This document shows positions 6,772 to 24,900 of a stretch of 27,099 nt of DNA, one piece after another (the first letter of the stretch is position 1; every line of letters starts with the position of its first letter). The translations under genes and the position numbers were made by a program. The DNA is from a virus, in IMG/VR virus record IMGVR_UViG_3300023176_004905, positions 1 through 27,099 of that record, one strand, 5' to 3'. The notes under the pieces are model-generated. The model worked only from the letters and a program-made list of their open reading frames with translations, did no database searches and had not been told where the DNA came from.

Positions 6772-6782
6772 TCCTTATCCTT
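6772..6782 (-). promoter_or_regulatory. Double Shine-Dalgarno before the 1714-residue gene
   Basis: Two AAGGA sequences (6778-6782 and 6772-6776) flank and overlap the upstream TAA stop. The first is at the better spacing, 9 bases from ATG; the second is only 3 bases away. Confidence 0.65.
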
Positions 6783-7506
6783 GTTTGTAAACGTCCAAGT
6801 CTATTACTTTTCTATAAGACGACAAGAACGGTATGTTCAATGTTTCCCCCGGAATAGGCTCATCTGGCATGAGTTGGTGATGAATGTAATCATTAAAGAT
6901 ATTGAAATCTTCTCTTGCCAACATCTTTACCTCTTCTCCGTTAGAAAACTTAGATCCTTTGAGTGCCTCGTCCTGAGTGTAAGATTTTGTCAGTCTATCT
7001 TGACCCTCGGCTACCAACCAATGAATAACAGTTTTTTCTGGTGTTGGTCGGGCAATTTCGGGATTTACCTCGCTATTCCAGTGGAAGATGCCACTTTCCT
7101 GTGCGTTCATAGCCGGATTGCCAGACGTGTGGCCAACAACGTCTGCTGGGTATGTCTTTATAATTCCAGATGCCGCCCACCATTCATCACTAAACATTTC
7201 TGAAAATTGAGAATCTTCACCCGAATCGCTTGCTCCCGATGGATCTAGATTCGTTGTGAACTTGAACTCGTTTTTCGTAGACTGATTTGGGTATGGAAAC
7301 GGTGCATTGATTCCAGACCCTTTAAAACCAATAGTTTCTTGTCTTTGTGAATGTAGCTGTCTATTGTCAAAAAACGTAGACTCTCCAGATGGCAAGACAC
7401 CAGATACTAACTGCACCTTTTGACCAGACGTAAGCGGCAACAATGGCCCCAATTGGGGGTCATTTTCGTAAAAATCTGACCACTGTGGTTTCTCTGCGTG
7501 TGTCAT
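6775..7506 (-). CDS. Small virion-associated protein of unknown function (243 residues)
   Basis: Not recognised. It is an acidic, hydrophilic protein with a Ser-Gly-rich first half: nine SG dipeptides in 243 residues, for example in TSGQKVQLVSG, PSGEST and DPSGASDSGED. A more ordinary second half has a predicted helix (FNIFNDYIHHQLMPDE) and ends LNIPFLSSYRKVIDLDVYKQG. No cysteine, signal peptide or membrane segment is seen. The start lies 2 bases after the previous stop; only a weak GGA, 9 bases upstream, serves as ribosome binding site, so expression likely depends on coupling. Its position between two tail-type genes suggests a small tail or baseplate part or a bridging protein. Coding is supported by tight packing and the long open frame. 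Confidence 0.7.
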   Translation of the reverse strand: MTHAEKPQWSDFYENDPQLGPLLPLTSGQKVQLVSGVLPSGESTFFDNRQLHSQRQETIGFKGSGINAPFPYPNQSTKNEFKFTTNLDPSGASDSGEDSQFSEMFSDEWWAASGIIKTYPADVVGHTSGNPAMNAQESGIFHWNSEVNPEIARPTPEKTVIHWLVAEGQDRLTKSYTQDEALKGSKFSNGEEVKMLAREDFNIFNDYIHHQLMPDEPIPGETLNIPFLSSYRKVIDLDVYKQG

Positions 7507-7508
7507 AA

Positions 7509-9302
7509 TTATCGGTCCAACTCATACGTCCAAGAGATGTTGAATGAATAAGTGCCCTCTTTAGGGTTCCAGCTTTCAGAAGGTGGCGAAATAAAATACT
7601 TTCTCACTCCCGGCTCACCCTTGGGGCTAAGTTCCCCAAGAAGTTCTGCTATCTGACTAGCAGTGGGCTCTACCAAACTAGGCTTTTTAAGTATCAAGGT
7701 TTTTCTATCTTTGCCATATGGAATTTTAGTGTAATCCATCGTGAGATTGATTGATACGTCTCTTTTGTACTCTGTTCGTCCTCCAATATACTGTAGAACA
7801 GGACCGGTTGCCCTACCAATAACTGGAATAATAGCAAATACGTCTCCCGGATATGTATCATTAACCTGAATACTCTCGGCAATAACACCAGAAATAATAT
7901 TTGTTGGCCTATTATTAAAGGCTAAACTATAAGTGATTTCTCCGTTGTATTGATTGGTTCCAAGGCTAATTGACACGGGCTGAGAATTTAATGCGACAGC
8001 AACGAGATTATTCGCACGTTTGTATATGTCACTAGTCAGTCCAAATTGACCACTATTGGATATTTGATTATATTTTCTAAGAGCATTAGCATAAGCACCG
8101 CTTGCGGCGTTTAGAGATGGGTCTCCAAAACCAGAAGGGGAAATACTTCTTAAACCCTTAATGTTTCCATCAATATTAACCGACACAAATGGATCTGTAT
8201 TGGAGGTCGCAGTGGTCATGCTGAACGTTTCATTAGCAGTGCCACTACTCAAAACCCAACTTTCAGATACAGAATAAGTACCTTCAGTAACTCCGATCTG
8301 CTCAGTTCTTACGTGGTTATAGCCGCCGTAAGAATCTACCAAATTTACGGTTCCAGAACCTATTTGTCCTGCGATATTTGGGTAAGGTATGCCGCTGCCA
8401 CCATATGATAATCTCTTCTGAACAAAATTCTTCGCCTGCTCCCAAGCAGGACGATTAATCGTGTTAGAAGGATCTTGATTATAGTTATAATCTAAACCGT
8501 CTGGACCGTAAACGGTTTTACCTGTGGCATTTAGATTATGCGTAATTCTGTATGTTATCGGATTGTCAGGGCTTTCTCCACCAGCTTCGTCTGCCTCTAA
8601 GCTCCAATCTTCACTATAGGTTTCAATAAAAGCTGTGTCTTCATCGTCTAGCAACGTTTGAATTGTTGTTGCTGTGCTTCTTACGTCAAGACCGCTATTG
8701 GCAAAAGTGCCCTCCAAATCTACGAGCAATTGATCGTCATCAAAATTACCTCTAAGAAGATAATCTGCTTCTAGGACGATAGTAAATTCAGATTTTGTAA
8801 GATACGGCCCCTCTGTAAAATCAACACTTACAGTTCTGGGGTAACAAACAACTGTAGCACCGGCATTGTCTAGAACATCAGAAAGTTCTACTCGTTGACC
8901 ATCTTGAGCAAATAGTGCCCGAAGAGCACGTTGCTTGCTAACAATAGCAGAAGCAGGCTTGGTGTTTTGAACGATTGTGGGATTGGAACCTTCTATGATC
9001 TGCTGTCTAGGCGGCTTGGCCCTAACAGATAGTGGAACATTATCAAATTGATTATATGGGCCAATGAGAGTCCCTGTATCGGCAGGACCAGTAAAGAAAT
9101 CAAAAATCTGGTCCGTTGCAGAATTTAGGGCATAGGGTGTGCCATGTTCTGGAAGTAACGTACCCGTCAGCGTGATGGTATAAGTAGCACCAAAGGTGCC
9201 CTGCTTATTTTTTAATACAGTCTCAGAGATTTGTATAAATGGCGTTGGCCGTATGGAACAAATCTGTGTTGGGTCGTTTTTATAGTGTACTTTTATAGGC
9301 AT
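7509..9302 (-). CDS. Beta-rich virion structural protein, probably tail tip/baseplate (597 residues)
   Basis: I do not recognise a named family. The protein is dominated by short amphipathic beta strands: an N-terminal ATYTITLTGTLLPEHG segment, DFTEGPYLTKSEFTIVLEAD near residues 170-190, YSVSESWVLSSG near 345, GEITYSLAFNNRP near 455, PVIGRATGPVLQYIGG near 495, and a final EGTYSFNISWTYELDR. Paired strands with Gly/Pro turns like these suit a tail-tip or baseplate protein that forms beta sandwiches. No signal peptide, membrane segment or catalytic motif is visible. The ATG directly abuts the stop of the giant gene, and AGAGG sits 7 bases before it inside the giant gene's last codons, so translation is probably coupled. 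The gene is firm; the role is inferred from position between the giant adhesin and the hub-like protein. Confidence 0.8.
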   Translation of the reverse strand: MPIKVHYKNDPTQICSIRPTPFIQISETVLKNKQGTFGATYTITLTGTLLPEHGTPYALNSATDQIFDFFTGPADTGTLIGPYNQFDNVPLSVRAKPPRQQIIEGSNPTIVQNTKPASAIVSKQRALRALFAQDGQRVELSDVLDNAGATVVCYPRTVSVDFTEGPYLTKSEFTIVLEADYLLRGNFDDDQLLVDLEGTFANSGLDVRSTATTIQTLLDDEDTAFIETYSEDWSLEADEAGGESPDNPITYRITHNLNATGKTVYGPDGLDYNYNQDPSNTINRPAWEQAKNFVQKRLSYGGSGIPYPNIAGQIGSGTVNLVDSYGGYNHVRTEQIGVTEGTYSVSESWVLSSGTANETFSMTTATSNTDPFVSVNIDGNIKGLRSISPSGFGDPSLNAASGAYANALRKYNQISNSGQFGLTSDIYKRANNLVAVALNSQPVSISLGTNQYNGEITYSLAFNNRPTNIISGVIAESIQVNDTYPGDVFAIIPVIGRATGPVLQYIGGRTEYKRDVSINLTMDYTKIPYGKDRKTLILKKPSLVEPTASQIAELLGELSPKGEPGVRKYFISPPSESWNPKEGTYSFNISWTYELDR

Positions 9303-12300
9303 TTAGAAACCTCTTATCCTTAAATCAAGAGAGTCTGTAGTTGCAGTGCTCCCCATGACTAAATTTAATGAACTTGGGAGTGGGCCACTTGGTGCTGATA
9401 TGTTCAAGAACAATCCACTTTGATCTATCCCATCGGCAGAAGCAATCCCACTTACGCCAAAATTGTTCAGTCCTAAAGTATTATACACATTTGCACTGCT
9501 TGCTCCCAACATAGAAAGATTCATGTTTCCAGACTCTAATACTGGTCTGCCAGAAGCAACCAGATTCATAGAACCATCTTCTTGAGTTCCAAATAGTATC
9601 TTTAGATCAACCTCTTTTACGTATGGTCTGTGTGCCACAAAACCCTTTCTGGAGGGGTCAAAGCCAGAAACTTCTAAGAAAATGTCACCATTTTGATTGC
9701 TAAAGATAATTCCTGAAATTTTGTATTCAATTGGGTCGCCAGAAACGTTCTGGTATACCCTAGTTTCCAATCTATCTGTACTTTCTTTTGGTTTTTTATT
9801 GCCAAATACGTGGGCATCTATCCATCCGCCACTGTTTGGAATGGCTGGAATTTGCTCTCTGAGCATAGCGTCAAAGGTGTATGCAGATCCAGCGTTTGCA
9901 AGACCACTCGTTGGGTGATTGCCGCTTGTAGGCCAATCATGGTTTGGAGATCCAATTACCAGCGTGTAATCACTATCACCACGGAAAGAGCGGTAAATGG
10001 CTACAGATTTTCCAAAGTTGTCGTTATCAGACCCACTAGCAGTTAGGATGAATCCTCCAAGTCCATCATCATCAATATCTGTTTGAATTCTGTCTTGATA
10101 TCCCACTGCGTACAGCTTTTCAGCAAACTGCCACTCTTGCGTTCTGGCTCCAAAATCTACTAATTCATTTCTGTAGTTGTAAACAGCACCACCATTAAGG
10201 ATCATAAGACCGCTATTATTGTTGAACTGGTCTACACGGATACCAGAATCGGCTAAGTCATAGAAGGAATGGGACGGAATGTCGTATTCGCCGTTAAAGC
10301 TCTTTCTTTGGAAAGCTGTACTTAAACCGCTTCCATTGTAGGCGACCGCACCGCTGTAGATATGGTGATGTAAGGTAGCGAAGTCATGATTAGGAGCACC
10401 GATTGCTGCCATATCACAATCCATAGAAACAGAGAATCCAAATCTATCGCCCCTTCTTCCATATTCAAGAATAAAGCTAGGATCTGCAATTTGGTGTGGA
10501 CCACGCTCTGCTTCCAGAACCTCAATTGGGCTTGGAGAGAAATCGTAAATTCCGACATTTACATTATCAGGCTTGATCTTAGCACCAAACTCCCAAGGTA
10601 AACCCTCTGCAATTACATTTCTGCCGTTGTCTGTGTTGTTGTATACAAATGCGGCACCAGCACCACCATCTGCACCAATCTTGGCTCCAGACCCAGCTTC
10701 TCCATTTTGAATCTCATGCCACTGGACAACTCCACTAATTCCGCTAACCGCTGTTTCAGCAGTAAACGCATTGTAAGGAGCACCAACAATTAACTTACCA
10801 TCATTGATCTCAATAGAGTAACCGAACAAGTCGCCCGGACATCCAGAATTAAATATGTCATAATCTAGATAATCTGTGTTTTCTATCTTCATCAATTCTG
10901 TCATGCCGCCACCAATACCGGCATCAACAATAAAGTCTTTATCTGTATCGTCATTAAGATCTAACAGCAAGTCGTAATCTTGATAGATACCACCTTGGTA
11001 ATTTACAATATCTAGGAAATCACCGCTAAATCTTGGATAAACACCATGAGTTCCAAGTGCGTCGTTATTAAAGAACTCTTCTTTTCTAGCCTGTATTTTT
11101 AATGGCTCTTTAATTTCTTCAGGTCTGGTTAATGTGGTTGGATCATAAGAATCTTCATTATCTGAATAAAGACCCAAACTACCTACCACGCCATTTCCAC
11201 CCCAAAGTCGGCTTGGGCAAAGAGTGCCAGCACCAATAGATGATCCACTTACGGCAACATATTTAGCTGTACTGCCACGCTCAGGAGCACGTATCTTCTG
11301 TGTAAATTCCCAATTCTTTCCAGCAACAGTATTTCTAGGAATACCAAGATCAAACCCTCCAGCCTGACCCTGCGGAGAACCGGCTCCACCGCCAAATCCT
11401 ACGCTGCCATCTCTTGACTCTTCTGGACTAGGCGGATACAAGTTTCTAACAAAACTCTGATTACCCTGAGTAGCAGCCGCCCTATAGTGAGGACATTGCC
11501 CCTGCAATAACGTAGAGTCTGAAATCAGAATAATCTTTGATCTTCTAGATCCATTTCTGAACGAAGTAAAGTTCTCAAACTCTTCTGCTACAATGACTGG
11601 GCCATCTTCTATTTCTTCCTGTGCCCAATCTACAGAAGCCTCTAAACAATCAGGATCGTCAAATGGAATGTCTCCACAGTATAATTGACTCTTATGTTTT
11701 ACAGGTCTTGATTCGCCCGGAATGTATCCGCTCTGAGCAGGGTTGACAATGTACATACAATTAACTGGAATAGGAGGACCATCTGGCACAAGTCCACTAC
11801 TCGTAGTTGTACTAATTGTGGTTATTACTTCAAGTGGTGCTCCCGATACTGAGAGAATACGAGGTGTTGAAGGTGGTAAAGGAATACCAGATAACAACTT
11901 AGCATCTATAAAGCTAGACCATCTGTTTGTATTAAATTGTAATTCTAACTCGGTTATATTCTGTACCTCATCAGTTCTAAAATCAAATACAAATTGAGAA
12001 GGAGTAAAGGTAGTAGTCTTATTCAATTCTGTAATAGTTCCACATGAATCAAAACTTGTGGATGCTGTGCCAAAATTGCCCTCTCTTTGTATCTCAGTAG
12101 GTGTATCTAGACATATTCCAAACTCTTCAAATTTAGTCTCAGAAACCCAGTTGACCCAAACTCTGTATCCAGATCCCGGTTCGATTGGGAATTTAACAGA
12201 AGCGTTTCCATCAATCGTCCAGTTGTTTCTGCTAGTGTACTCTTTGTATGTCTGAATGACAGGATTATTGAAGGATATTATTCTTTCGAAATCTGCCCCT

Positions 12301-15300
12301 CCAGAAAGCGGCACAATAGACTTCTTATCCGCCAAACCTAAATCACTTCCCTCGCCACCAGTCTTTTCACTAAATTCAATTCCACTCAAGCTAGTAGCAA
12401 ATTGATAGTTGGGGAATGTCCATGCATATCCATCATCACAACCGCTAACACTGTCGGTTGCATAGTTAACAATCTGGCTGGAAGTTTCTCTACCGTAAGT
12501 CTCTACCACTGATTCTCTATGATATTCACCCTGTTTTGGTAGGAACATTGGCCTACTGGTGACACCAAGTCCGCTACAGAGATAATCAATTCTATCAGCA
12601 GTTTCTTGTGCATCTTCTTCATTATCCGCATTATACGTAATGATAAGTTTCTTTTCACCAGTATCTAACCAACTGTTTAAACTTGCGAAGTCACTGCTTG
12701 ATGGTTTTCCAGATGGGAACGCAAGCCAAGCAAAATCTATCTGATCGTTCAACGCACTCATTGGTTGATTCTCTTTAAAGTATCCTCCAGCGAGCAACAA
12801 TTCAACATTTATTTTATTACCGAGACTATGATCTGTTGATGAACCATCATAGTTGTAAGCACTGTTTAAGGAGGATCTTCCTGTAAACCCATTAATTTGA
12901 ATACCTTTAGCAACCTCATCGCAGTTCTTGCGAATCATATTGAGATAGAATTCTGTATTCTTATCGTCATTATTGGTTGGGTGCGTGATACCTCTACTAG
13001 CATCATCTTCGGGCCATTGACCTGCTAAAATATAGACTCTAGAGTTATTGAGCGTTCCATCGGATTTTTTACCAGATTCAACAAGTGCAAAAATATGATC
13101 TGGATAGACAGTTTCTCTAACTGTCCTCTCAGATGTCGATGAAGTCCCCGTAGCTTGCAAGATTCCATCTCGACCATTAAGGGTGTCTGGATCAAACATG
13201 TCTCCACCAAATGTGAACTCATTGAATAATCCAGATATAGATGAATCGGTATCCTCTTGAATAGAGAAAGCAATCTCGTCTTCATTAACTTCTGCTAAAG
13301 AAATGTCTGTTTCGTTTTTACGTGTAACTTTATACTTGTAACGCTGCTCGTAATCGCACTGAAGTCCAGAAGTCGCCGGTTCAAACCAGTAAATATCAGG
13401 TAAGTGTTCAGCGGTAGTCAAAACTGGCGTTGGTGATTGATCCTGCTTGAAGAATAGCGGCTGTGGTGTGTCATCACAAATAGGAGTAAAGTTATTGAAC
13501 AAGAAGGGCCAGTTTCTCTGGTATCGAACAACTTTACATGTCTTAGGTGTGGTCAAAACACAAGAGTCATTCCATTCAGCACGTAAATCTCCACGATTAC
13601 CATCTAGTGGGAACTCACACTTTGTATTGATGATCTGCGGTGATCCATTACAACTCGCACCGTCTGGACAGCCAATTGTAGCAAAGTAATCTTCTAGACC
13701 GTCTCTGGATAAGTCTATTCTAATATCGCCAACACCCTTGACATAATATTTACCGTCATACTCAATTGTTCTGGCAGTAGAGTATGCTGGCAAGAATGAT
13801 GCGGTTGCATTGTACTTATCATCATTTAAATCTTGCTGACTAACACATCCTTGTATCGAGTAGCTTTGATCTTTAGCGGCTTGAATCCGCATCCTAGAAC
13901 CTAACTTTTCTAGGATTTTGTTAATAATATCATTAGACTCTTTGTATAGTCCATTATCTTCCCATACTGGGTCGTTACCAACCAAGACGAGATTTCTATC
14001 GCCAAGCTCCAGCCAATCTTTTATGTTGTCGATAATCTCATCACTGGCAGCGTCAACTTCTGGCGTAATAATAAACGCAAGACCGGCCTCTTGAGGAATC
14101 TCAATTTCCGAGAAGTCCATTCTTCTCCAGTCTTTACCTTGGTAGTCTGAAAATCCGGTAGATCCAGAACCAAAGATTAAAGGCCAGTTACTTTCATCAT
14201 AGTATCCAGCGTCTCTTTCTTCATCGTGAGTTGATCTATCTAAGTTTCCGAAACGGCCAAACTCTACAACCTCGTTATGTGGGAAGTATTTTCTATTGTG
14301 GAACATTCTTACCGCACCAGCGTTATGATAAGAAGCCCAAGACTTAACATTATCGCCCCAAACATTAATGTCTTCAAATTCGTTGAAGGAGTCTGTAGGT
14401 GCCCCAAATGCTACAATCTCACCATCTTCGTCTACAGAGCAACTCCAGCCCATTCTGGATGTTCCCGCAAACTCGTCGATGAGGAACTTTCTTGTTCCGA
14501 TATATCTAACATCATTATGACCGTACTCAAACGTCAACTGATATGGCTCTGGAAGTGAAGAACCCCAGAACGTAACATCGTTTCGATATTCAAACCTGTC
14601 TGGAGATTTGATGTAATCATAAGTAGCTGTCTTAGCGATTGCTGCACCAGAAGCACGCTCTATAGAATCATAGTATTCTACAGCGTAATTAAATGGACTT
14701 CCTTTGAAGACAAGCCATCTTCTAATATTGTCGTATACCTTTTGAATCTCCGATTCGCTTCTTTCATAAATCTTACATGGGTTGTTATTCCAAGGAGATC
14801 CAATTGCTAATACTTCTGAATTCTTACTAAGAGCAACAGAGTGTCCGAAACGGTCATTGTAAGTTTTGGCATATCCAGCACCAAATATACTTTCTGGATC
14901 ATCAAAAAGTTCAGATTCGTCGTTAGGTGAAACAATGACTTGAACACAGTTAAAATTATCACGCTCTTTTTCAAACAAGTAAACTCTACCGCCAGATGCA
15001 GGAGGAACTTGGAACTCAGTAACAACTGACCCGTGAGTATTGCCCCAGATTTGACCAACACCGCTAGTGATAAAGTTTCTATTTAAAGTAGTGTTAGTAA
15101 ATGTTGTTGATAAACGACCACTATCAAAAGTATCCTGCATTAACTCAACAGATGTATCCGCCCAGTCTTCAGATTTACCTATGACTGTATGTAAGTGACC
15201 GCTTTGCTGAATACCTTGAACAAAGTCAGTAACACCACTAGCAAATGAGTGCTTCTCATAAAAATCTTGGAACTTATCGTATATATTGTAAACTGTGCCA

Positions 15301-18300
15301 TTTTCATCGGCATATTGTAAAGCTCCAGCAGTAGATCCTGTCTGCTCTTTGAACATACCAATAATAGCTGGAATACCACTGTAGGCAGCAGCATTTGGAT
15401 TACCACTTGGGAAAGCTGTAAAGAATCCATCGAGAACAGTATCGAACATTTGGTTGAATACGACCGGCTGACCAGAAGCAACAAAGTCAGCAAGAGTTCC
15501 TGATCCACCAAGTACGCCAGAACCAACCTCAGTTAGAAGATCAAGGTCGTCTAGTCTAGGAATGTATCTGTGTGTAAACCAATCAGACTCATCGGTAGAA
15601 ATATTAGGATAATCCCTATTGGAGTAGGTTAATTGGAAGACAAGTAGATTTGGCTTAATTTCTGCATACCACTCGTCTGGCCCAGCGTTCCAAGGTGCTG
15701 AGAAGTATTTCCAAAGAATATTAAATTTACCAGCCGAAGCAGCAACCTTTTGTAACTTAGGCTTATTGTATGCGAACAGGTCGGCAAAAATCATTCCCGC
15801 AGTAGGAACACCAGAAGTTACAAGATCGTCAAACTGTCTTGACCATTTAGCACGAGGTGCTCCAACCGCAATAACTTCTCTGTCACCACTGGCCGACAAT
15901 GACAATGATTCACCGAACTGTCTACCTTCTTGACCAATCTGCCACTTGTTTCCAGAGATAGAAAAATCACCAAATGATAATAGATTATCTGTTGTTCTCT
16001 GGATATAATCTTTTCTAAAGCCAGATGGTAGCATCAACTGCTCTTCCAAGACCCAATCTGCTTTCTTGCCAGCCTCGTCTTGCCCTCTTCGATACAAGAA
16101 TACAGCACCCGCACCGCTGACTTCTATGTTACCAAAACCACCACCAGATGGATAAACGCCATAGTCAGGAATTGTGATATTAGGTGCGGCAACAGCCATG
16201 ATATCTTCACTGACAGCAACGTTTTGACCAAATTTGTCACCAATGCTTCTGCCAGACGCAACGATCAAGTCAGAGTCAGAGTAAAGGTTTGCAGAAGGAG
16301 GAACACCACCGGCATCGTCACCAATAAGTTTGACACCAGAGAATACAATGTTTCCATTGCAGTCCTCTGTACAGCATCCGCTACCGTCTGCATACCAAGC
16401 TGGACCACACATTCCATATTCCCATTCCTCAAATGTTCTTGGGACAGGAATAGCGTCAGTAGAACCAGTAACAATACTCATGGTTGCAAAGTATGGAGTA
16501 GAAGGAAGAAGTTGGGTGTACTTCCTTATTCCATAGTAGTTTCCGCTGTATCCTAAACCGCCTTCAAAGTTGATCGCACCAGAATTTGTGTAAGTAGCTT
16601 TGGCCCGGAATATTCCACCTTCGTTGCATGTCTCTTCTCTCCAAACAGTGCAGTCTGTTTCAAGTGCGGCATCAACCGCTTTGCTTGGGCTGTCCCCTGT
16701 GCAAGATCCATAACCTATTAAGTCTACACCTCTAATCTCATTGTCTGCGGACAGGGAGGCATAAGAGTTATCTTCTAGTTCAATTCCGGTTCCATAGTTA
16801 TTATTGTGCCACAGTCCAAATGCAGATCCAGCACCTTTAGATCCTACATTGTAACTTGCCGTAACAAGATTAACTGTGCTTGTCAGTAAAGATTCTACTA
16901 ATGGGTTATGGAGATACAGATTCATGTCTGTATCAATTATGTTTGGAGCATTAATATACAACGGCATAGTAGACGTTGTTCGTGAGCCCGGAATCTGGTT
17001 TCTTCCAAACATGCTCAGATTAATAAATCCACTTGCAGCAGTCTCTTGTGTATTCCCAATAGACCTATTATATAGGTACATTGGAATTGATCGGTATATA
17101 CTAGTTCTATCACCAAGAGATGCAGACATATTCAGATTGAGGAATGGACCCTCTGGGCTTTCACCGAAATCTACATTATAGACAGTGAGAGGAAGACCAA
17201 AGATATTCCCGCTGCCATAGTTTGGAGAGTTTGGATCTGAAGTATCTGAATTTCCATCTAAGGAATTGTCTAGTGATCCGAGGACAACTGGTAAGGCAAG
17301 TGGCATACTTCCAGAAGCTATATCTGGAATTTGACCACTGACATATAGATTGAATGAGATGTCGCCAGACTGTGGCGGGATGAACAAGTTAAGTGCTTCA
17401 CTACGCTGGAAAGCACCACTAACATTGAGGTGGAAACCAGAAGGAAGCCCTTCTGAAATAACATCGTAATCAAAAGGAACCTGAATAGTAAGATCTAAGC
17501 TGTCATTGACTTCCCTTGGGAAACCACCAATGTTCATATTCAGAGTATTGGACGCAGGATAAGCACCGCTAGAATACAAATTAAATGTGCCACTATTAGC
17601 AGTTTTGCAAATATTGACATCCTGCATCCTAACATGCGAAGAGTGCATCTCAAGTCTAGAATCAAACGCTGGCCCAGATGGGTAAACCAAGTCGTACTGA
17701 ACGAACATTTGATTTACGTCGTCTTTAAAGTATCTTTCTGAGAAGTCTTTTAATCTTGGCTCTTCGGGGAAGACAGTCCAAGCATCAGTTTCTTCACAGA
17801 TAGAATCGTAATCAAAAACGGATTCAAGTTTGATTAAGCAACTAGACGGTTTAATGTAGTGAGTTTTACGGTTTACAAGTCCCCAGTTTGGTTCGTCTGG
17901 AGTCCAATATGGCTCCTGCTTCTTGGTGTAAAGACTAACGATCATCTGAGGTCCAGAAGGCATGATATCAGTACATGCTTCCCACTCTATGCCTGCACCA
18001 GTCTTATGCTCAATAACGGTCTCAACAACGAGGGCACGTTCAGAGAATTTGTATCCGACTGGTAGGTTTTTAGTTATTCTTCTATTTACAGCATAGAATG
18101 AATCTTGAACGTCTGACAAATGGAAACGTAGGAAATCGTTTTCCATCTGTGTATGATATGCAACACCACTATCTACATTAGACAATAATGGTAAGTCATT
18201 GTTTTGTGAGTAACCAGAGCCATGATGATTTAACTCAAAGATAATATGTTCTGCGTTTGGACGTTTTTGCCACTGGTCAAACCCAAATCCAAACTGACAC

Positions 18301-21300
18301 CACTTAAAGTCACCGATAGCCCAATCGTTGTAAGTATCTTCGTTTACTCTGTCCCAAAGTTTATATCTGTCATTAGTATGAGACTCGTCAGGATCAAAGA
18401 ACTTAGCACGACTATTTTCTAAGAAAACATCTGCGTTAACGCCCTTATAAGTTTTATCTGCACCGGACGCTACAATGTTCGTACCAAATCCGTACAGGGT
18501 ATCAACACCAGAACTATAGGTAGAGACACCAAACTCACTGACCAGCATATTCATGCCCACGCCAGAGCCAGCAGAATATCCTAAGACAATATTTGCATCG
18601 TTTGCATTTTTATGGAACGGAGAAGATGTAGCTCTCAGTACATCAAAGTCAGATCCACCAAATTCATTATCAGTGTAAAGTCTAAGTCTATGGTTGCCAT
18701 TATCATTATATGTAAGAATAGTATTTAATGGGAATTGATAGCCGCTATACTTGATAGTATCTTTGACTGTTATAATATTACCATTGACATCTTGGGCGTA
18801 ACCGCAAAGGAATCCATCCTCATAGCCGAGGGCAAAATCCATGTCTTCAGCAGTGCTCCACTTAGACACAATAACGCCACTGTCGAACAGGTCGTAGTCT
18901 ACTCCAGAAACGTTTGCGTCTGGTGTGAATCTAGTGAAGATAGCAAAACCGCCAGATACATCAACAGGGCCAAAGTCAATATTCTGACCACCAGCTTCAC
19001 CACTAATTCTAATGACTCTATCAAATGCGTCGGCAATCTTTCCATACAATGGGTTTCCAACAAAGGTTGTAGAACCATTGGATAAAGATGTCCAGTCAGT
19101 AGTGGTATAGTTACCGCTGTATCCCGGAAGTTGATCGTTAAACAATGTGCCACTTGCAAATCTCCAACCAATATTATGGTGAATCTCTGGATCAGTCAAG
19201 CACAGACCACTGAGAGTACCCAAGCCACTAGGAGAGGATGGACCCATGTCAACAGACAATACATATCTATTTTCTGGCCCAAACGAATCAAACTTGTAGT
19301 AACCTGACAAGAATGGGTAGTCTATAGTTGGATTTTCAAAACCAAAACTGAAGGAGTCTAGGTCGTATGGTCCACGAACTGTACCCTCTGAACCTCGCCA
19401 CCTTCTAGAGTAGTTTGTTTTGATTGTATCAGGCGAACTATAAGCATGGGGAAGACCTGCGATGGCAGAAATTGGTTGATACCCAGAGCCAGCGTTTAGT
19501 ATGTCATCATAAGATTCCATGCCCGATGGGAACAATGCACCTTCTGATCTACCAGCCTGAGCCTTGCCTATCTTCTCACCACCTTGAGTGTAGATGTTTA
19601 GACCGTCTGCTGGTGCATATCTAGCACAAAGCTCTATGTATGCAATAGAAGCACCACTAGGAAGTGGATAAATGTCTAAGTATAAATGTTCCAATAACGA
19701 GCTTAGACTATAATCTCTAGATACTCCATACCTTACATTGTCATCAAGAATAACCAAGGGTACTTCATAAAGTTGGAAGTCAGTAGTATTAACCACTGGG
19801 TACTGGGCCAATTTGTAATGGTCGTTACCGCTCGCTTCAAAGTAGTCATCTCTCTCAGATAGTCCAGCACCACCCATTGTCCAGTCTGAGTTGTCACCGT
19901 AGAAGCCTGATAGAACTGGGTGCTGTCCAATATGGGGCACAAATTGGTCATTTAAGAAAACGCCAGACGGGTCTTGAATAAATCCTCCAGATGGGCTTGT
20001 TACATTCAACAACTTGTCGTCGCTGTAACCAACAACATCAAGTACATAGTCTCTGGTGCCCACTTCTTTTTTAGCCAGAACCTTGAGTGTTAAAGATTCT
20101 ACATTAAAGTAAGGCGAGTCTTCTTGTATCTCTTCTGTACGTTTTTCTACATTAAATGCACCGCTGGGTGAGAACCATATATTCTTTGTGCCCTGATCAA
20201 ATGCAAAGTCAAAATCACCCGGAGTAATTTCATCTACTTTTGATCTTCCATGCTTAAACTTCAGTATGAGCTTACCAGAGTCAGCAACGTCTCCACCCTC
20301 TGCGGTCCGTAGCTTGATGTAACGGTCATCATTTTGAACTTTAAGAATATCAATAAGTTCTTGTGCCCCGCACACATCTTCATTTGTTGCACTAAGAGTG
20401 TCGTTTTCCCATATGTTATTATTTACCGCTGGGTATATTGTAGTGTCATATGTATTGAGGGGCATAAAGTTAGGCTTGATACACCTCTCAAGACGCCTAC
20501 CTTTGTCCCTAACAGCTACTTGGAATGGGAGATAGTTTTCTGGTCTTGGTCCGAATCCGCCACTATTACAAATCTCAACAGCAGAGATTCTAAAACCTCT
20601 TGTTGGATTGATAAACCGAACTTCTTGAGTTGATAAAGGTTGACCATCTAGGGCAAGGTAGTTATTTCCACTAGCATAGAATGTTTCGGGAGTAATGTAG
20701 TTATCTTCGAAACCCTCGTCAAAACCCTCTGTAAATGGATCATCTAAAGAAACGGCACGCACACTAAAAGACAGTTGGTATCCAACGTCTTCGTGCATGT
20801 GGGGAATACCACGTCTTTGCCAGTCGTACCTATCTGATATAGCATTTAATTCTGGCAAAGAAGAGTATGTTGAAAAGTTTTCATACTCGTCGTTAGCATC
20901 GCCCTTTATCTGTATGTCATTATACTTTACAATTAAGTTTCCAGAAGGGTCGGAAAGTCGAATATTGTATAATGTATAAAGAGGAGGAGTCTTAGACTCT
21001 AGGTTTGATAATGGTGCTGATACACGAATTCTAAACGCAGAATGATCTGGCCTAACATTTAAACTTGTTAGGTTACAATTATATTGGAAGAGGCCCTCTG
21101 TATGTATTGTATTCGGCTCAATATATGAATTCAAATCATCTGATAGATTATTAGAGTCGCCGCCATCTTTTGCTGTACCTTCATAAACACCTTCATCAAT
21201 GTAAGACCAAAGATTACCGGATTGATTGTATGGGGCAATAAACGACCCGAACCCGTCTGCAACAGAAAGGTCGCCAGAAGGATACAGCTTACCCTGACAG

Positions 21301-21965
21301 TAGAAGTCGCCAAAGTCTCCAGCCATCTTATCTACTGTGTTGTCAAAATCTCCCTCACCAACAACCTGCTGAGAGATAGAATAGTCGGCAATGAGGTCTT
21401 CGTCAATCTCTCCATCGCTCTCGATAGACACTAAAGGAAATGGTATCTCTACTGATAATAATCTGGATAGCTCGCCCTCGCCCTCTAGCAAGATATTTCC
21501 ATTACCAAATGATTTCGCTATAGTTGCATTTGGAGGTGTGGGATGACCTATACCACTGGCAACTACACTGTCAATTTGGGCAGTAGTAAAATCAACATCG
21601 CCATCATAAAAGATTAATGCAGAGCCATCAGCGTATGTATTTATGACACTTACTGTCTCTGTAAATGGCACAGCACCAGCTAGACCAGAGATTGTTACTT
21701 CCCATCCAGCCTCTACAAATTCACAGCTTTCTGGATCAGAGCATCCACTGATGGTAAAGTACGGACCAGATCCATCCAATACTGTACTAAAATTTGCGGT
21801 AAGAGTTTCACCCGGAGAAGTAATTTTAGAATCGTTCTCAAGAGTGGCAGAAAGTGCCCCCTCATTTAAACCAAGAAATGCATCGACTTCTGCACCACCG
21901 GGGCAGGTAGCAGATGTCCCCTCGATGCACGAACATTCAAGATTTTTTAAGAATGGTTCCGACAT
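9303..21965 (-). CDS. Giant (4220-residue) mosaic virion protein, probable host-binding fibre/adhesin
   Basis: This is the largest gene in the window. No signal peptide or membrane segment is visible; the N-terminus has three early cysteines (C11, C13, C21). Regions by eye, in residues: beta-rich N-terminal third; LamG/concanavalin-like fold 930-1150; NLxL beta repeats 1455-1705; Cys-rich patch 1853-1870; four FG-GAP blades 1890-2530; Rossmann/GATase-like segments at about 2622-2693 and 3074-3140, with a fold-end-like segment at 3454-3510; Cys-rich stretch 2765-2872; three more FG-GAP blades 3705-4030 with a DxDxDG calcium-type loop near 3963; NLxL repeats 4120-4220 to the end. Ser-Gly dipeptides are unusually frequent. 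LamG and FG-GAP domains bind carbohydrate or protein ligands in other proteins, so a receptor-binding role is inferred. It starts 9 bases after the tape measure gene with AGGA 7 bases upstream of ATG. The start is well supported; the role is inference. Confidence 0.85.
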   Translation of the reverse strand: MSEPFLKNLECSCIEGTSATCPGGAEVDAFLGLNEGALSATLENDSKITSPGETLTANFSTVLDGSGPYFTISGCSDPESCEFVEAGWEVTISGLAGAVPFTETVSVINTYADGSALIFYDGDVDFTTAQIDSVVASGIGHPTPPNATIAKSFGNGNILLEGEGELSRLLSVEIPFPLVSIESDGEIDEDLIADYSISQQVVGEGDFDNTVDKMAGDFGDFYCQGKLYPSGDLSVADGFGSFIAPYNQSGNLWSYIDEGVYEGTAKDGGDSNNLSDDLNSYIEPNTIHTEGLFQYNCNLTSLNVRPDHSAFRIRVSAPLSNLESKTPPLYTLYNIRLSDPSGNLIVKYNDIQIKGDANDEYENFSTYSSLPELNAISDRYDWQRRGIPHMHEDVGYQLSFSVRAVSLDDPFTEGFDEGFEDNYITPETFYASGNNYLALDGQPLSTQEVRFINPTRGFRISAVEICNSGGFGPRPENYLPFQVAVRDKGRRLERCIKPNFMPLNTYDTTIYPAVNNNIWENDTLSATNEDVCGAQELIDILKVQNDDRYIKLRTAEGGDVADSGKLILKFKHGRSKVDEITPGDFDFAFDQGTKNIWFSPSGAFNVEKRTEEIQEDSPYFNVESLTLKVLAKKEVGTRDYVLDVVGYSDDKLLNVTSPSGGFIQDPSGVFLNDQFVPHIGQHPVLSGFYGDNSDWTMGGAGLSERDDYFEASGNDHYKLAQYPVVNTTDFQLYEVPLVILDDNVRYGVSRDYSLSSLLEHLYLDIYPLPSGASIAYIELCARYAPADGLNIYTQGGEKIGKAQAGRSEGALFPSGMESYDDILNAGSGYQPISAIAGLPHAYSSPDTIKTNYSRRWRGSEGTVRGPYDLDSFSFGFENPTIDYPFLSGYYKFDSFGPENRYVLSVDMGPSSPSGLGTLSGLCLTDPEIHHNIGWRFASGTLFNDQLPGYSGNYTTTDWTSLSNGSTTFVGNPLYGKIADAFDRVIRISGEAGGQNIDFGPVDVSGGFAIFTRFTPDANVSGVDYDLFDSGVIVSKWSTAEDMDFALGYEDGFLCGYAQDVNGNIITVKDTIKYSGYQFPLNTILTYNDNGNHRLRLYTDNEFGGSDFDVLRATSSPFHKNANDANIVLGYSAGSGVGMNMLVSEFGVSTYSSGVDTLYGFGTNIVASGADKTYKGVNADVFLENSRAKFFDPDESHTNDRYKLWDRVNEDTYNDWAIGDFKWCQFGFGFDQWQKRPNAEHIIFELNHHGSGYSQNNDLPLLSNVDSGVAYHTQMENDFLRFHLSDVQDSFYAVNRRITKNLPVGYKFSERALVVETVIEHKTGAGIEWEACTDIMPSGPQMIVSLYTKKQEPYWTPDEPNWGLVNRKTHYIKPSSCLIKLESVFDYDSICEETDAWTVFPEEPRLKDFSERYFKDDVNQMFVQYDLVYPSGPAFDSRLEMHSSHVRMQDVNICKTANSGTFNLYSSGAYPASNTLNMNIGGFPREVNDSLDLTIQVPFDYDVISEGLPSGFHLNVSGAFQRSEALNLFIPPQSGDISFNLYVSGQIPDIASGSMPLALPVVLGSLDNSLDGNSDTSDPNSPNYGSGNIFGLPLTVYNVDFGESPEGPFLNLNMSASLGDRTSIYRSIPMYLYNRSIGNTQETAASGFINLSMFGRNQIPGSRTTSTMPLYINAPNIIDTDMNLYLHNPLVESLLTSTVNLVTASYNVGSKGAGSAFGLWHNNNYGTGIELEDNSYASLSADNEIRGVDLIGYGSCTGDSPSKAVDAALETDCTVWREETCNEGGIFRAKATYTNSGAINFEGGLGYSGNYYGIRKYTQLLPSTPYFATMSIVTGSTDAIPVPRTFEEWEYGMCGPAWYADGSGCCTEDCNGNIVFSGVKLIGDDAGGVPPSANLYSDSDLIVASGRSIGDKFGQNVAVSEDIMAVAAPNITIPDYGVYPSGGGFGNIEVSGAGAVFLYRRGQDEAGKKADWVLEEQLMLPSGFRKDYIQRTTDNLLSFGDFSISGNKWQIGQEGRQFGESLSLSASGDREVIAVGAPRAKWSRQFDDLVTSGVPTAGMIFADLFAYNKPKLQKVAASAGKFNILWKYFSAPWNAGPDEWYAEIKPNLLVFQLTYSNRDYPNISTDESDWFTHRYIPRLDDLDLLTEVGSGVLGGSGTLADFVASGQPVVFNQMFDTVLDGFFTAFPSGNPNAAAYSGIPAIIGMFKEQTGSTAGALQYADENGTVYNIYDKFQDFYEKHSFASGVTDFVQGIQQSGHLHTVIGKSEDWADTSVELMQDTFDSGRLSTTFTNTTLNRNFITSGVGQIWGNTHGSVVTEFQVPPASGGRVYLFEKERDNFNCVQVIVSPNDESELFDDPESIFGAGYAKTYNDRFGHSVALSKNSEVLAIGSPWNNNPCKIYERSESEIQKVYDNIRRWLVFKGSPFNYAVEYYDSIERASGAAIAKTATYDYIKSPDRFEYRNDVTFWGSSLPEPYQLTFEYGHNDVRYIGTRKFLIDEFAGTSRMGWSCSVDEDGEIVAFGAPTDSFNEFEDINVWGDNVKSWASYHNAGAVRMFHNRKYFPHNEVVEFGRFGNLDRSTHDEERDAGYYDESNWPLIFGSGSTGFSDYQGKDWRRMDFSEIEIPQEAGLAFIITPEVDAASDEIIDNIKDWLELGDRNLVLVGNDPVWEDNGLYKESNDIINKILEKLGSRMRIQAAKDQSYSIQGCVSQQDLNDDKYNATASFLPAYSTARTIEYDGKYYVKGVGDIRIDLSRDGLEDYFATIGCPDGASCNGSPQIINTKCEFPLDGNRGDLRAEWNDSCVLTTPKTCKVVRYQRNWPFLFNNFTPICDDTPQPLFFKQDQSPTPVLTTAEHLPDIYWFEPATSGLQCDYEQRYKYKVTRKNETDISLAEVNEDEIAFSIQEDTDSSISGLFNEFTFGGDMFDPDTLNGRDGILQATGTSSTSERTVRETVYPDHIFALVESGKKSDGTLNNSRVYILAGQWPEDDASRGITHPTNNDDKNTEFYLNMIRKNCDEVAKGIQINGFTGRSSLNSAYNYDGSSTDHSLGNKINVELLLAGGYFKENQPMSALNDQIDFAWLAFPSGKPSSSDFASLNSWLDTGEKKLIITYNADNEEDAQETADRIDYLCSGLGVTSRPMFLPKQGEYHRESVVETYGRETSSQIVNYATDSVSGCDDGYAWTFPNYQFATSLSGIEFSEKTGGEGSDLGLADKKSIVPLSGGADFERIISFNNPVIQTYKEYTSRNNWTIDGNASVKFPIEPGSGYRVWVNWVSETKFEEFGICLDTPTEIQREGNFGTASTSFDSCGTITELNKTTTFTPSQFVFDFRTDEVQNITELELQFNTNRWSSFIDAKLLSGIPLPPSTPRILSVSGAPLEVITTISTTTSSGLVPDGPPIPVNCMYIVNPAQSGYIPGESRPVKHKSQLYCGDIPFDDPDCLEASVDWAQEEIEDGPVIVAEEFENFTSFRNGSRRSKIILISDSTLLQGQCPHYRAAATQGNQSFVRNLYPPSPEESRDGSVGFGGGAGSPQGQAGGFDLGIPRNTVAGKNWEFTQKIRAPERGSTAKYVAVSGSSIGAGTLCPSRLWGGNGVVGSLGLYSDNEDSYDPTTLTRPEEIKEPLKIQARKEEFFNNDALGTHGVYPRFSGDFLDIVNYQGGIYQDYDLLLDLNDDTDKDFIVDAGIGGGMTELMKIENTDYLDYDIFNSGCPGDLFGYSIEINDGKLIVGAPYNAFTAETAVSGISGVVQWHEIQNGEAGSGAKIGADGGAGAAFVYNNTDNGRNVIAEGLPWEFGAKIKPDNVNVGIYDFSPSPIEVLEAERGPHQIADPSFILEYGRRGDRFGFSVSMDCDMAAIGAPNHDFATLHHHIYSGAVAYNGSGLSTAFQRKSFNGEYDIPSHSFYDLADSGIRVDQFNNNSGLMILNGGAVYNYRNELVDFGARTQEWQFAEKLYAVGYQDRIQTDIDDDGLGGFILTASGSDNDNFGKSVAIYRSFRGDSDYTLVIGSPNHDWPTSGNHPTSGLANAGSAYTFDAMLREQIPAIPNSGGWIDAHVFGNKKPKESTDRLETRVYQNVSGDPIEYKISGIIFSNQNGDIFLEVSGFDPSRKGFVAHRPYVKEVDLKILFGTQEDGSMNLVASGRPVLESGNMNLSMLGASSANVYNTLGLNNFGVSGIASADGIDQSGLFLNISAPSGPLPSSLNLVMGSTATTDSLDLRIRGF
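9306..9620 (-). repeat. NLxL-type short beta repeats, C-terminal block of the giant protein
   Basis: Residues about 4117-4220 consist of six or seven units of the same kind as the central block: EVDLKILFG, SMNLVASG, NMNLSMLGAS, LFLNISAPSG, SLNLVMGST and SLDLRIRGF, the last ending the protein. The presence of this family both mid-protein and at the very end suggests a module used for self-association or capping. Confidence 0.65.
9310..9315 (-). promoter_or_regulatory. Ribosome binding site of the 597-residue gene inside the giant gene's last codons
   Basis: AAGAGG, 7 bases before ATG, lies in the Arg-Gly codons of the giant protein's C-terminus. The stop TAA and the ATG are directly adjacent, which favours coupled translation. 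Confidence 0.75.
9876..10853 (-). other. FG-GAP beta-propeller blades 5-7 of the giant protein
   Basis: Three blade motifs are visible at about residues 3705 (GDLFGYSIEINDGKLIVGAP), 3832 (GDRFGFSVSMDCDMAAIGAP) and 3976 (DNFGKSVAI... then LVIGSPNHDW). They alternate with closing strands GAAFVYNNT, GAVYNYRNE and GSAYTFDAM. A DIDDDG loop near residue 3963 fits the DxDxDG calcium-binding pattern common in these propellers. Confidence 0.75.
11436..11607 (-). other. Segment C of the giant protein, resembling the end of a GATase-like fold
   Basis: Residues about 3454-3510. GPVIVAEEFENF, SRRSKIILISDSTLLQG and GNQSFVRNLYP follow the order 'gPv.va.e......gr.vvi.Ds.ll.......N..f..nl' that closes DUF4350-type domains. 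It may complete segment B across a 310-residue insertion. Tentative. Confidence 0.35.
12546..12746 (-). other. Rossmann/GATase-like segment B of the giant protein
   Basis: Residues about 3074-3140. DFAWLAFPSGKPSSSDF, LNSWLDTGEKKLIITYNAD and a helix ending in LCSGLG align by eye with segment A over about 65 residues: strand, P, helix, WL..G...L(I/V).., then helix-LG. This suggests an internal duplication. A catalytic role is unlikely; a structural or sugar-binding role is possible. Confidence 0.4.
13887..14102 (-). other. Rossmann/GATase-like segment A of the giant protein
   Basis: Residues about 2622-2693. It shows a hydrophobic strand and turn (LAFIITPEVD), an Asp/Glu helix, WLELGDRNLVLVGNDP, then a helix ending LEKLG. 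This is the layout of the membrane-free class I glutamine-amidotransferase-like folds seen in DUF4350-type proteins, in which a 'W/Yl..G..lll' strand follows the first helix. No catalytic Cys is evident. The call is tentative. Confidence 0.4.
14376..16298 (-). other. FG-GAP beta-propeller blades 1-4 of the giant protein
   Basis: Four blade motifs are visible at about residues 1898 (GDKFGQNVAVSEDIMAVAAP), 2010 (FGESLSLSASGDREVIAVGAP), 2360 (DRFGHSVALSKNSEVLAIGSP) and 2498 (a diverged MGWSCSVDEDGEIVAFGAP). Closing strands such as GAVFLYRRG, GRVYLFEKE and GAVRMFHNR alternate with them, as in integrin-alpha-type propellers. A segment of about 300 residues without recognisable motifs separates blades 2 and 3. 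Confidence 0.75.
16851..17603 (-). repeat. NLxL-type short beta repeats, central block of the giant protein
   Basis: Residues about 1455-1705 contain roughly fourteen units of 12-25 residues, each with one short strand of the form (x)NLxL or (x)PLxL. Examples are SGTFNLYSSG, LNMNIGG, LDLTIQVP, ALNLFIPPQSG, SFNLYVSG, FLNLNMSAS, MPLYINAP and DMNLYLHNP. The strands are joined by Gly/Ser/Pro-rich turns of varying length. The regular strand-turn spacing suggests a beta solenoid or a stack of hairpins. DNA copies are diverged, so this is an old protein-level repeat. Confidence 0.65.
18516..19178 (-). other. LamG/concanavalin-like region of the giant protein
   Basis: Residues about 930-1150 read like a LamG or concanavalin-A-like beta sandwich. 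GFAIFTRFTPD matches the usual core strand, followed by VIVSKWSTAEDMDFALGYE (the common 'i.sKw....f.l.' strand), then HRLRLYTDN and NIVLGYSAGSG near the end. These folds usually bind glycans or protein ligands. The call is a pattern match by eye and the borders are approximate. Confidence 0.55.
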
Positions 21966-21972
21966 TTATTTA

Positions 21973-21976
21973 TCCT
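21973..21976 (-). promoter_or_regulatory. Ribosome binding site of the giant gene, overlapping the tape measure stop
   Basis: AGGA, 7 bases before ATG. Its first two bases are the last two of the tape measure TAG stop, so a ribosome ending the tape measure is placed to restart on the giant gene. Confidence 0.75.
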
Positions 21977-24900
21977 AAAGTACAGAGTCCTTCTTGACTA
22001 GATCACCAGAATTATTTGCTTTGTATTTTTGAATCTCATTTCCTACTTCGGTCAACAATCCATCCTTGATATCATCTTTCAAGGTTTCAAGGAATGATGC
22101 ACCATTGAAGTTAACATTAATATTTGTTGGATCTAAGGCCACATTAAATTTAGTGTTTACCAATTTCTCTACCGTTTCTGCAAATCCTGAGAAAATATTT
22201 GTTAAACCCGGAAGTGCGTTAGTAAACACATTAGCAATTCCATCTACAAAACCGCCATCGTTATAGTATCTAACACTACCACCGCCACTCAAAGCACCCG
22301 GAGCACTTGCTCCACCACCAGTATTCATTGCCCTTAAAATTTGTAAGTTATTACCTCTATTAACTGCCGCACGATTAACAACAAATTCTCCCGGCGTTAA
22401 CATGGCTGGAACCGTATCTGTTCCACGAGGAACGAACATTCCTCTACTTGCATAAACAACTCCACCTCTCGCTAACGCCTGTGCTGTCTGAGCACTTTGA
22501 ACTTCTCCCAACTTCCTGTCAAACGACAACTGAGCAGCATTAATTGTAGCGTCTTGGATTGCTATTTCAGCCTTGGCAAAAGCGGCTTCTTGTGATGCTA
22601 ACCCACCCAATGCTCCAGCTAGTTCTCTTCCTTCTGCTTTTAATGCTTCTTCTTCTGCTGTCGTACCAGATAATACACCAGTTCCCTGAATTCCGAACCT
22701 TTGTAAAGTTAAGTCTTCTGCACCACGGAGTTGCTGGTCAGATAACCCTTGTCCCTGAAGGGTTTTAAATCCAGCACCAAGGGCACTAGCACTAAACAGC
22801 CCAGCAAGCCCAGCACTACCAGATGCGAGTGCAGCACCAGCACCAGCAGCGGCCTGTTGATCCAAGAACCCTTCTACATCTCCACTGATTAATTTATCAA
22901 GGGCACTTTTCTCTGCGGCATTTTTCTGCTTAACAATATTAAGCTCTTCTTTGAGTAGGGAGATACGTTGTTTTGTAAACTGAATTAATGCCTTGTTTGC
23001 AGCTTGAGCTTCTGGTCTCTTGTCTGCGGCAAATCCACCAACACCTTGGAATGGACCGCCTTTTTGTAGACCTGCACCAGCAGCCAATGCACCGCTAATA
23101 ACTTGATCTGTTTGATCTGCGAATGTCTGACCAATTTGAGCAGCAACAGCATTGATATCGGCAGCATCTCCAGTTGTAAGCTGTGCCCCTAAACCACCTA
23201 GTCCACCAATATTATTAAACTGAGCAATTCTAGCTCCCAACTGTTGCTCGCCGGTTAGCTTGGAGCCACCAAATGACTCAAACACTTTAGCTGCTTCTAG
23301 CTGTGTTTCAATAGCTTGGTTTGCAGCAGCGGCAGCTTTTTGTTCTAACTGTTCGCGATCCGCATACAACTTTGTCATGGTCGCATTGTGCTGCGACTGA
23401 AGTTTTACTGCTTCTCGGAAACCTTTAGATAATTCTTGACCATCTGCTAGAATTTGCTGAGTGAGTGCATCTAAGTCGGCATCACTAGCATCGCCCTCAA
23501 TACCGGCAACATTTTTACGAATCACTGCTTCAAGTTTGGTTTTGGTTGCATCGTCTGCTTTATCTGGAATAGCATCAAGCAATGCCTGTTCAAGCTGCTT
23601 TTTTCCTTCATCACCTTTTGCAAGTTCTAGACCGCCTAATTGGGCAGCAGCATTTAGACCAAACTTGTTAGTTGCTCTTGCAACATCAGCCTGACCACTA
23701 ATAGAGGCGGCTAATGGAGATCCAGCAGGTAAAGAAGACAATAGTGCAGCTTTGGACTGATTGATTGCATCGGTAGCATCAACGCCCAGTTTTCCACTAG
23801 CATTGTCTAATTCTTCAGATAGTAGAGCCAAACTATTAGCACCAGTTTCTAACCCAGCAACTAGTTGGGCGGAAGCATTAGCAGCAGCACCAAAAGCTGA
23901 AACGATTTTGGTTGCATCAAGGTTTGCTTTGTTTAATTCTTGTTGAGCTTTTCTATTTGCTTCAATTGTGTCAACTTGTGCCAATAATTCTTTTCTTAGT
24001 GCTTCGTTACCACCAGTAAGGTTAATAGCTTGCTGTCTTAAGTCAGCGACACTTACGCCTAACCCATTAAGTCTCTGTATTTCGGCTCTGGTTGCTGAAT
24101 CTATTGCTTTATTTGCTTTGTCTCTGGCTGGTCCTGTAAGGTCTTGAGCTTCTGCCCTAGCTGTGGCAAATGCCTCATTAACACCAGACAGTGCCTGACC
24201 TACATTTTGACCGCCCTTAATTTCTTCTGCTGAAGACCCTTGTCTAGATTCAATAAATCCAAACGCACTTTGGAATTGAGCTTGTTCTTTTTTCTGTGCT
24301 CTTCTTTCTACAAACCCTTCTGGATCAGAAAATGCTTCGATAAACCCTTGAAGAGTGAATACTTCACCAATTGAACTAGCAACAGAGGCTTTACCAGCAG
24401 CTTCGACTGCACCGGCAATATTATCACTGGCTTTAGCTTGCTCTTCTGCACGCTTAAACCACTGCTGGAACCCATCGGCAATTTGAGAACCAACGGCAGC
24501 AATGGCAGCGACAGCAGCAACTCCACCGGTAATAACGCCACTAGCACGACCAATACCCCTCTTTAGGGCACCACCGGCTCTACCAATACCCCTCTTTAGG
24601 GCACCACCGGCTCTACTACCAAGGTTTCTGATTCTTTGAGCTAATCCACTTATAGCTTTAGCAGTGGCACCTACAGCTTTAGCAGAACCCTTCACGATTC
24701 TGGTAAAAGCGGTTTGCTTGTTTATAAATTTAACAACCCCAACGGCTCCTCGCCCAAAACCACCTGCTAATTTGTTGGCACCATCTTTAAGTTTTTTAGC
24801 TCTTTCACCAACACGACCAAGTGCTTCTCGTGCCGCTTTGAGATTCTTCTCGCCTCCAATAAGTTGGACACCAAATTTCTTAAGCCCCTCAGTTGCATTT

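Follow-up and report, generated by a model that had tools for sequence, protein, structure and literature searches.

A giant protein with FG-GAP motifs and a LamG-like region encoded in the putative tail module of uncultured phages

We analyzed a window of 27,099 bases (the whole stretch of DNA considered here) from an IMG/VR virus record, and found that it encodes a protein of 4,220 amino acids, hereafter the giant. We give a probability of roughly 0.5 to the reading that the giant is a conserved structural component of the distal tail (the tail tip or baseplate region), combining a C-terminal FG-GAP propeller, most likely closed, with an N-terminal LamG module. The position beside a probable tape-measure gene, the FG-GAP motifs shared by all aligned members, the integrin matches of the predicted structure, the LamG fold and a low dN/dS support this reading. 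Counting against a scaffold role, adhesion is a frequent function of LamG and propeller folds, which would suit host binding as well. To our knowledge, a length of 3,500-5,600 residues, as seen across the family, ranks among the longest of phage proteins.

The giant gene, its neighbours and its relatives

The gene has one start and one stop codon. At the base composition of the sequence, the probability of 4,220 stop-free codons arising by chance is ~1e-123, and the protein is conserved on ~90-100 viral contigs in IMG/VR, confirming the single open frame reported at these coordinates by an earlier sequence-only reading; it lies on the minus strand (Table 1). The same reading had located this frame directly after the tape-measure gene. 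The placement is plausible in view of the 9-nt gap, the length of the neighbouring product in relatives (1,963-2,860 aa) and its LTPGEFVV-type motifs; the tape-measure identity itself is less firm, since the sole family match, by three stretches within 21975-27050, is to phrog_35029, a family of unknown function.

The gene order is probable tape measure, giant, p597, p243 or a shorter equivalent, p1714 and p1366, and the relatives examined have the giant in this same position, flanked by the probable tape measure and p597. By inference only, p1714 is possibly hub-like. The lineage comprises uncultured tailed phages with genomes of ~170 kb or more. The 173-kb contig of one relative (L007), classed as linear in IMG/VR, encodes a terminase, a ribonucleotide reductase and a DNA polymerase III alpha subunit, and may be nearly complete because both of its ends fall within homologues of one gene. 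Its terminase matches those of Bacillus and other phages at ~25%. A 335-aa protein that matches a head protein of Bacillus phage G at 20% identity was taken for the putative major capsid protein. No sheath was recognised, and a non-contractile tail is our guess. Fibre-like genes with YadA-head-like repeats follow one another near the probable capsid gene (G001:C1:99592-115498), and several of them lack counterparts in related contigs.

A single-sequence search of IMG/VR yielded 15 relative loci, and searches with profiles yielded 30 and then 40. With two deeper profiles, tblastn confirmed 98 and 90 candidate stretches in overlapping sets, of which 80 were kept in each case; near-identical contig copies of one virus are counted individually in these numbers. 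Among 71 loci examined, the giant is a complete single frame in 58 (3,486-5,598 aa, median ~4,070), is cut by a contig end in three and is split in ten. Best-segment identity among the relatives ranges from 100% down to ~26%. No cultured relative was found in searches that included 50,697 phage records, against which both the giant and p1714 gave zero tblastn matches. The giant matched no PHROGs family, FG-GAP_2 was the only family found by a Pfam scan, and no homologue is described in the literature available as open PMC papers. The statement that no described protein has this module order thus held for the 50,697 phage records, PHROGs and, by sequence, the PDB. Three contigs of bacterial MAGs also carry the giant (L123, L124 and L125; SAR202 twice, Verrucomicrobiales once), and these records may represent mis-binned phage contigs. 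One SAR202 bin contains two distinct phage contigs, which is either a host hint or mis-binning.

Table 1. Features of the 27,099-base window. W denotes residues of the window protein, with residue 1 at position 21965.
Feature	Residues	Position	Strand	Basis or remark
p1366 homologue, N-terminal part		1..1620	-	comparison; fastest-diverging large gene of the module
p1714, conserved		1624..6768	-	open frame, comparison
p243, small neighbour gene		6775..7506	-	open frame, comparison
p597, conserved neighbour, family unknown		7509..9302	-	open frame, comparison
Giant gene (probable tail protein), 4,220 aa		9303..21965	-	ATG at 21965, stop at 9303
Variable N-terminal region	W1-190	21396..21965	-	C-x-C near start
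Conserved N-terminal core	W190-860	19386..21398	-	matches no family
LamG/ConA-like jelly roll	~W974-1154	18504..19046	-	Foldseek of model, profile match
NLxL beta-repeat block 1	~W1450-1700	16866..17618	-	hhalign, motif count
Cys-rich patch	W1755-1869	16359..16703	-	7 Cys
Linker	W1755-1771	16653..16703	-	natural split site in other lineages
Propeller half 1, blades 1-4	~W1880-2600	14166..16328	-	Pfam, alignment; ~230 extra residues inside blade 2
FG-GAP motif 1	W1908-1930	16176..16244	-	sequence reading, alignment
FG-GAP motif 2	~W2014-2039	15849..15926	-	sequence reading, alignment
FG-GAP motif 3	~W2369-2392	14790..14861	-	sequence reading, alignment
FG-GAP motif 4	~W2500-2524	14394..14468	-	sequence reading, alignment
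Long insertion between blades 4 and 5	~W2600-3690	10896..14168	-	alignment
DUF4350/GIFT-like alpha/beta domain 1	~W2617-2700	13866..14117	-	profile similarity
DUF4350/GIFT-like alpha/beta domain 2	~W3021-3160	12486..12905	-	profile similarity
Weak likeness to C-terminal tail of DUF4350/GIFT-like domain	W3440-3500	11466..11648	-	E 0.02
Propeller half 2, blades 5-7	~W3690-4070	9756..10898	-	alignment, model, Foldseek
FG-GAP motif 5	~W3709-3731	10773..10841	-	sequence reading, alignment
FG-GAP motif 6	~W3837-3860	10386..10457	-	Pfam, sequence reading, alignment
FG-GAP motif 7	~W3978-4009	9939..10034	-	sequence reading, alignment
NLxL beta-repeat block 2	~W4090-4220	9306..9698	-	hhalign, motif count; model pLDDT below 50
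Probable tape-measure gene, cut by window end		21975..27098	-	9-nt gap, length, LTPGEFVV-type motifs

Modules of the giant and the putative split propeller

Wherever it is visible, the module order is a variable N-terminus, a conserved core, the LamG-like region, a beta region, NLxL block 1, a Cys-rich patch, blades 1-4, two successive GIFT-like domains, blades 5-7 and NLxL block 2. The LamG, FG-GAP, Rossmann-like, NLxL and Cys-rich modules listed in the sequence-only reading were all upheld by profile, model or motif evidence, as follows. That reading had also proposed structure prediction and Foldseek as a check, and AlphaFold models covering W930-2129 and W3021-4220 (moderate mean pLDDT, 63 and 52) returned a LamG fold and integrin-type propeller matches, respectively.

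The least conserved part of the window protein is W1-190. In five relatives (L097, L099, L102, L103 and L105) an N-terminal extension of 790-1,330 extra residues shifts the start of the LamG region from residue 860 to residue 1,649-2,191, and the 5,598-aa protein of L277 is probably extended likewise. The N-terminal 2,000-2,200 aa of two extended members were scanned; RCC1-like repeats, a second propeller type, were found together with cadherin/Big domains in L102 and with a LamG domain in L099.

Pfam gave no hit to Laminin_G_3 or LamG in the window protein at E<=1, and alignment of the LamG region to a Laminin_G_3 profile from a Verrucomicrobial MAG was weak (129 columns, hhalign E=0.0037, probability only 9%). 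The jelly-roll fold is nevertheless backed by Foldseek, in which the W930-2129 model matched laminin LG5 (E 1.1e-5, TMt 0.56) and beta-neurexin (TMt 0.59). The Foldseek list also contained clostridial neurotoxin entries; a toxin reading was rejected, as the jelly-roll fold alone is in common. The two NLxL blocks are related to each other (hhalign 97%, E 2e-10) and contain six and three strict NLxL motifs against 1.1 and 0.5 expected. Besides the Cys-rich patch at W1755-1869, in which two of the seven Cys columns are invariant or nearly so in a 39-sequence alignment, a second patch carries 7 Cys within W2766-2870.

Five stretches of the giant matched Pfam FG-GAP_2 (PF14312) with 81.5 bits against a cut-off of 23 (E=5e-23), and two further motifs were recognised by eye, making up the seven that had been claimed. 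All seven motif columns are alignable in 41 of the 41 aligned members, although single residues vary, and most motifs are followed in the sequence by a G-[AG]-x-[VA]-[FY]-like hairpin. The arrangement is always 4 + 3 around a gap of ~1,200 residues (~1,205 between motifs 4 and 5 in the window protein), which suggests that the blades form a single split seven-bladed propeller, whose closure is predicted. The model of blades 5-7 has about four strands per motif, and in its Foldseek search ranks 1-46 were integrin alpha propellers (best E 6.6e-5, probability 1.00) with low TM-scores (TMt ~0.2). Profiles of the LamG region, the propeller and the first alpha/beta region had no significant match among PDB sequences. 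No compact relative with a contiguous propeller was found; the insertion is present wherever both halves are visible.

The insertion contains the Rossmann-like modules, two mutually homologous alpha/beta domains (hhalign 95%, E 1.7e-8) resembling DUF4350/ABC_transp_aux, and DUF4350 presumably belongs with the GIFT domains. The first copy of a relative scored 16 bits against DUF4350 in a genome search, below the cut-off of 30.4. In hhalign comparisons with a DUF4350/ABC_transp_aux profile of five sequences, domain 1 gave E 0.011, domain 2 E 1.5e-4 and W3440-3500 the value listed in Table 1, with other regions at 0.14 or worse. A ThuA-like origin was unsupported by the profile comparisons, and a viral fold library returned weak, unnamed matches only. 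The GIFT domain was defined by GldG and IFT52, and sugar binding has been proposed for it (PMC7226087).

The giant resembles integrin alpha in having seven FG-GAP blades, and the alpha-I integrins in particular in that an alpha/beta domain interrupts the series of blades. The alpha-I insertion lies between blades 2 and 3; that of the giant lies between blades 4 and 5, is ~1,200 residues long and is DUF4350/GIFT-like instead of vWA. The sequence matches the bacterial-type FG-GAP_2, and beyond the repeat there is no sign of common descent with integrins. Among phages, the tail nozzle protein of SU10 is a seven-bladed propeller interrupted by Ig-like domains between blades 2 and 3 (PMC9509320). 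This interrupted seven-bladed propeller in a tail protein, as in the SU10/T7 nozzle (PMC9509320), offers an architectural analogy only: the nozzle belongs to the short tails of podophages, and no sequence relation to the giant was found here. Propeller domains also occur at phage baseplates, seven-bladed in PhiKZ gp131C and five-bladed in the phi11 receptor-binding protein (PMC4901313); the combination of FG-GAP, LamG and GIFT-like domains is undescribed there. By analogy, a propeller in the giant would have precedents on both the structural (SU10 nozzle) and the receptor-binding (phi11) sides. Of comparable length is the 5,002-aa tape-measure protein of P23-45 (PMC10770324), which is a tape measure fused to an RNA polymerase and not a chain of beta domains.

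Natural splits of the gene

The sequence-only reading had described the protein as made in one chain. This is true of the window and of the 58 complete relatives; at the ten split loci, which come from about eight different viruses, two genes encode the giant, or in one case (L320) probably three, unless that locus is damaged. The break falls at W1755/1756 (window numbering) in L288, L313, L311, L315, L321 and L322, the last repeated by L323 and L324. In L310 (5467-5477) and L320 (11503-11512) it falls at ~W1450-1510, just before or within NLxL block 1. In L320 the stretch between blades 1 and 3 is apparently missing or damaged. The junctions consist of a 4-nt overlap (ATGA, or ATGx sharing the stop) in four cases, a 23-nt overlap in two and gaps of 8-9 nt in the other two. 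Assembly or sequencing errors are unlikely to explain the splits: the same split recurs in divergent contigs, and there is agreement between two contigs obtained from different samples.

In a tree built on blades 1-4 of 69 members (a quick search with SH-aLRT support only, midpoint-rooted for drawing), four state changes are needed. Three of them account for the W1755 splits, which are scattered among unsplit members as L288/L313, L311 and L315/L321/L322; L310 accounts for the fourth. The simplest account is that one variable linker, flanked by conserved blocks, was the site of repeated fission, with fusion possible at some nodes. In several split genes the codons of a conserved Y-G-x-C motif place a GGAG or GGAGG just ahead of the new start codon, possibly the reason why the split recurs at W1755. 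Since the gene is split at this linker in at least three lineages, the giant is, to judge from its gene structure, composed of two modules able to work as separate chains. Proteolytic processing of the single chain at the same linker is a speculation.

Conservation and the likely role of the giant

Between lineages, the giant is 43-55% identical over ~100% coverage, compared to 41-55% for p1714, 54-67% for p597, 24-35% for p1366 and 28-39% for an upstream 1,503-aa fibre. This fibre matches a tail-spike family, and its identity falls from 0.63 to 0.21 from N- to C-terminus; a 2,028-aa homologue in another genome (G004:C1:92781-98867, minus strand) itself carries FG-GAP_2 repeats. The identity of the giant stays at ~0.4-0.7 along its length, except at the N-terminus and in NLxL block 1; in the pair formed by the window and L006, W2800-3700 is somewhat less conserved (0.78-0.86 vs ~0.95 elsewhere). 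In close pairs, dN/dS obtained by a simple counting method was 0.09-0.15 for the giant (0.087-0.145), 0.07-0.14 for p597, 0.12-0.23 for p1714 and 0.15-0.57 for p1366, with 0.37 for the tape measure from one close pair only. The giant is under strong purifying selection and evolves fairly uniformly.

The sequence-only reading had regarded the giant as the main host-recognition structure. On this view it would be a giant adhesin that contacts the receptor through its LamG, propeller and GIFT-like domains. The ligand-binding habit of LamG and FG-GAP folds speaks for this, as do propellers in the phi11 receptor-binding protein and PRD1 P2 (PMC4901313) and the long N-terminal extensions of some members (RCC1-like, LamG, cadherin-like), and a conserved receptor would permit a conserved adhesin. 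The comparisons leave the claim unsupported, and we regard it as somewhat unlikely: the giant is conserved over its full length with low dN/dS and lacks the conserved anchor and strongly diverging binding region of a receptor-binding protein, and fibre-like divergence sits in the 1,503-aa fibre and p1366, where variable specificity more likely resides. The pattern of the giant is that of a conserved structural part, which suggests an old, slowly evolving component of the tail rather than a fast-changing host-recognition fibre.

Serial beta domains, NLxL repeat blocks and several glycan-binding-like folds would also suit a long peripheral fibre or decoration that makes a first, reversible contact with a conserved surface polymer, leaving specificity to other genes. 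The gene lies inside the tail module beside the probable tape measure, and no trimeric-fibre repeats were recognised in Pfam or PHROGs, so that we find this proposal doubtful. A secreted or host-surface protein outside the virion is highly improbable given that the gene is embedded in a structural gene block, even though the virion location is itself predicted from gene order. A more elaborate idea is that of a "phage integrin". This would be a conserved protein of the distal tail with an FG-GAP propeller displaying inserted sugar-binding GIFT-like domains and a LamG domain to grip a conserved surface glycan, its two modules occurring naturally as one chain or two and maybe processed at W1755; we offer it tentatively, as an unlikely elaboration.

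For the structural distal-tail protein that we favour, gene order and sequence features are the basis of the assignment to the tail tip, the neighbouring tail genes being without informative family matches. In the arrangement we propose, the distal tail is where the propeller and N-terminal modules assemble. The seven C-terminal blades would most likely close as one integrin-alpha-type propeller, its ring interrupted between blades 4 and 5 by the insertion with its GIFT-like domains, and this propeller would probably belong to the body of the tail tip. Standing out from it would be the LamG, GIFT-like and N-terminal domains, which may serve to bind glycans of the host or as docking points for neighbouring fibres, with variable fibres setting specificity.

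The giant defines a widespread, hitherto unannotated family of phage tail-module proteins, and would put an integrin-like split propeller into a phage tail. Recurrent splitting at one linker marks a module border, and the split relatives offer structural studies a naturally two-chain form. For this uncultured lineage, the search for determinants of host specificity shifts to two other genes, those of the 1,503-aa fibre and p1366.
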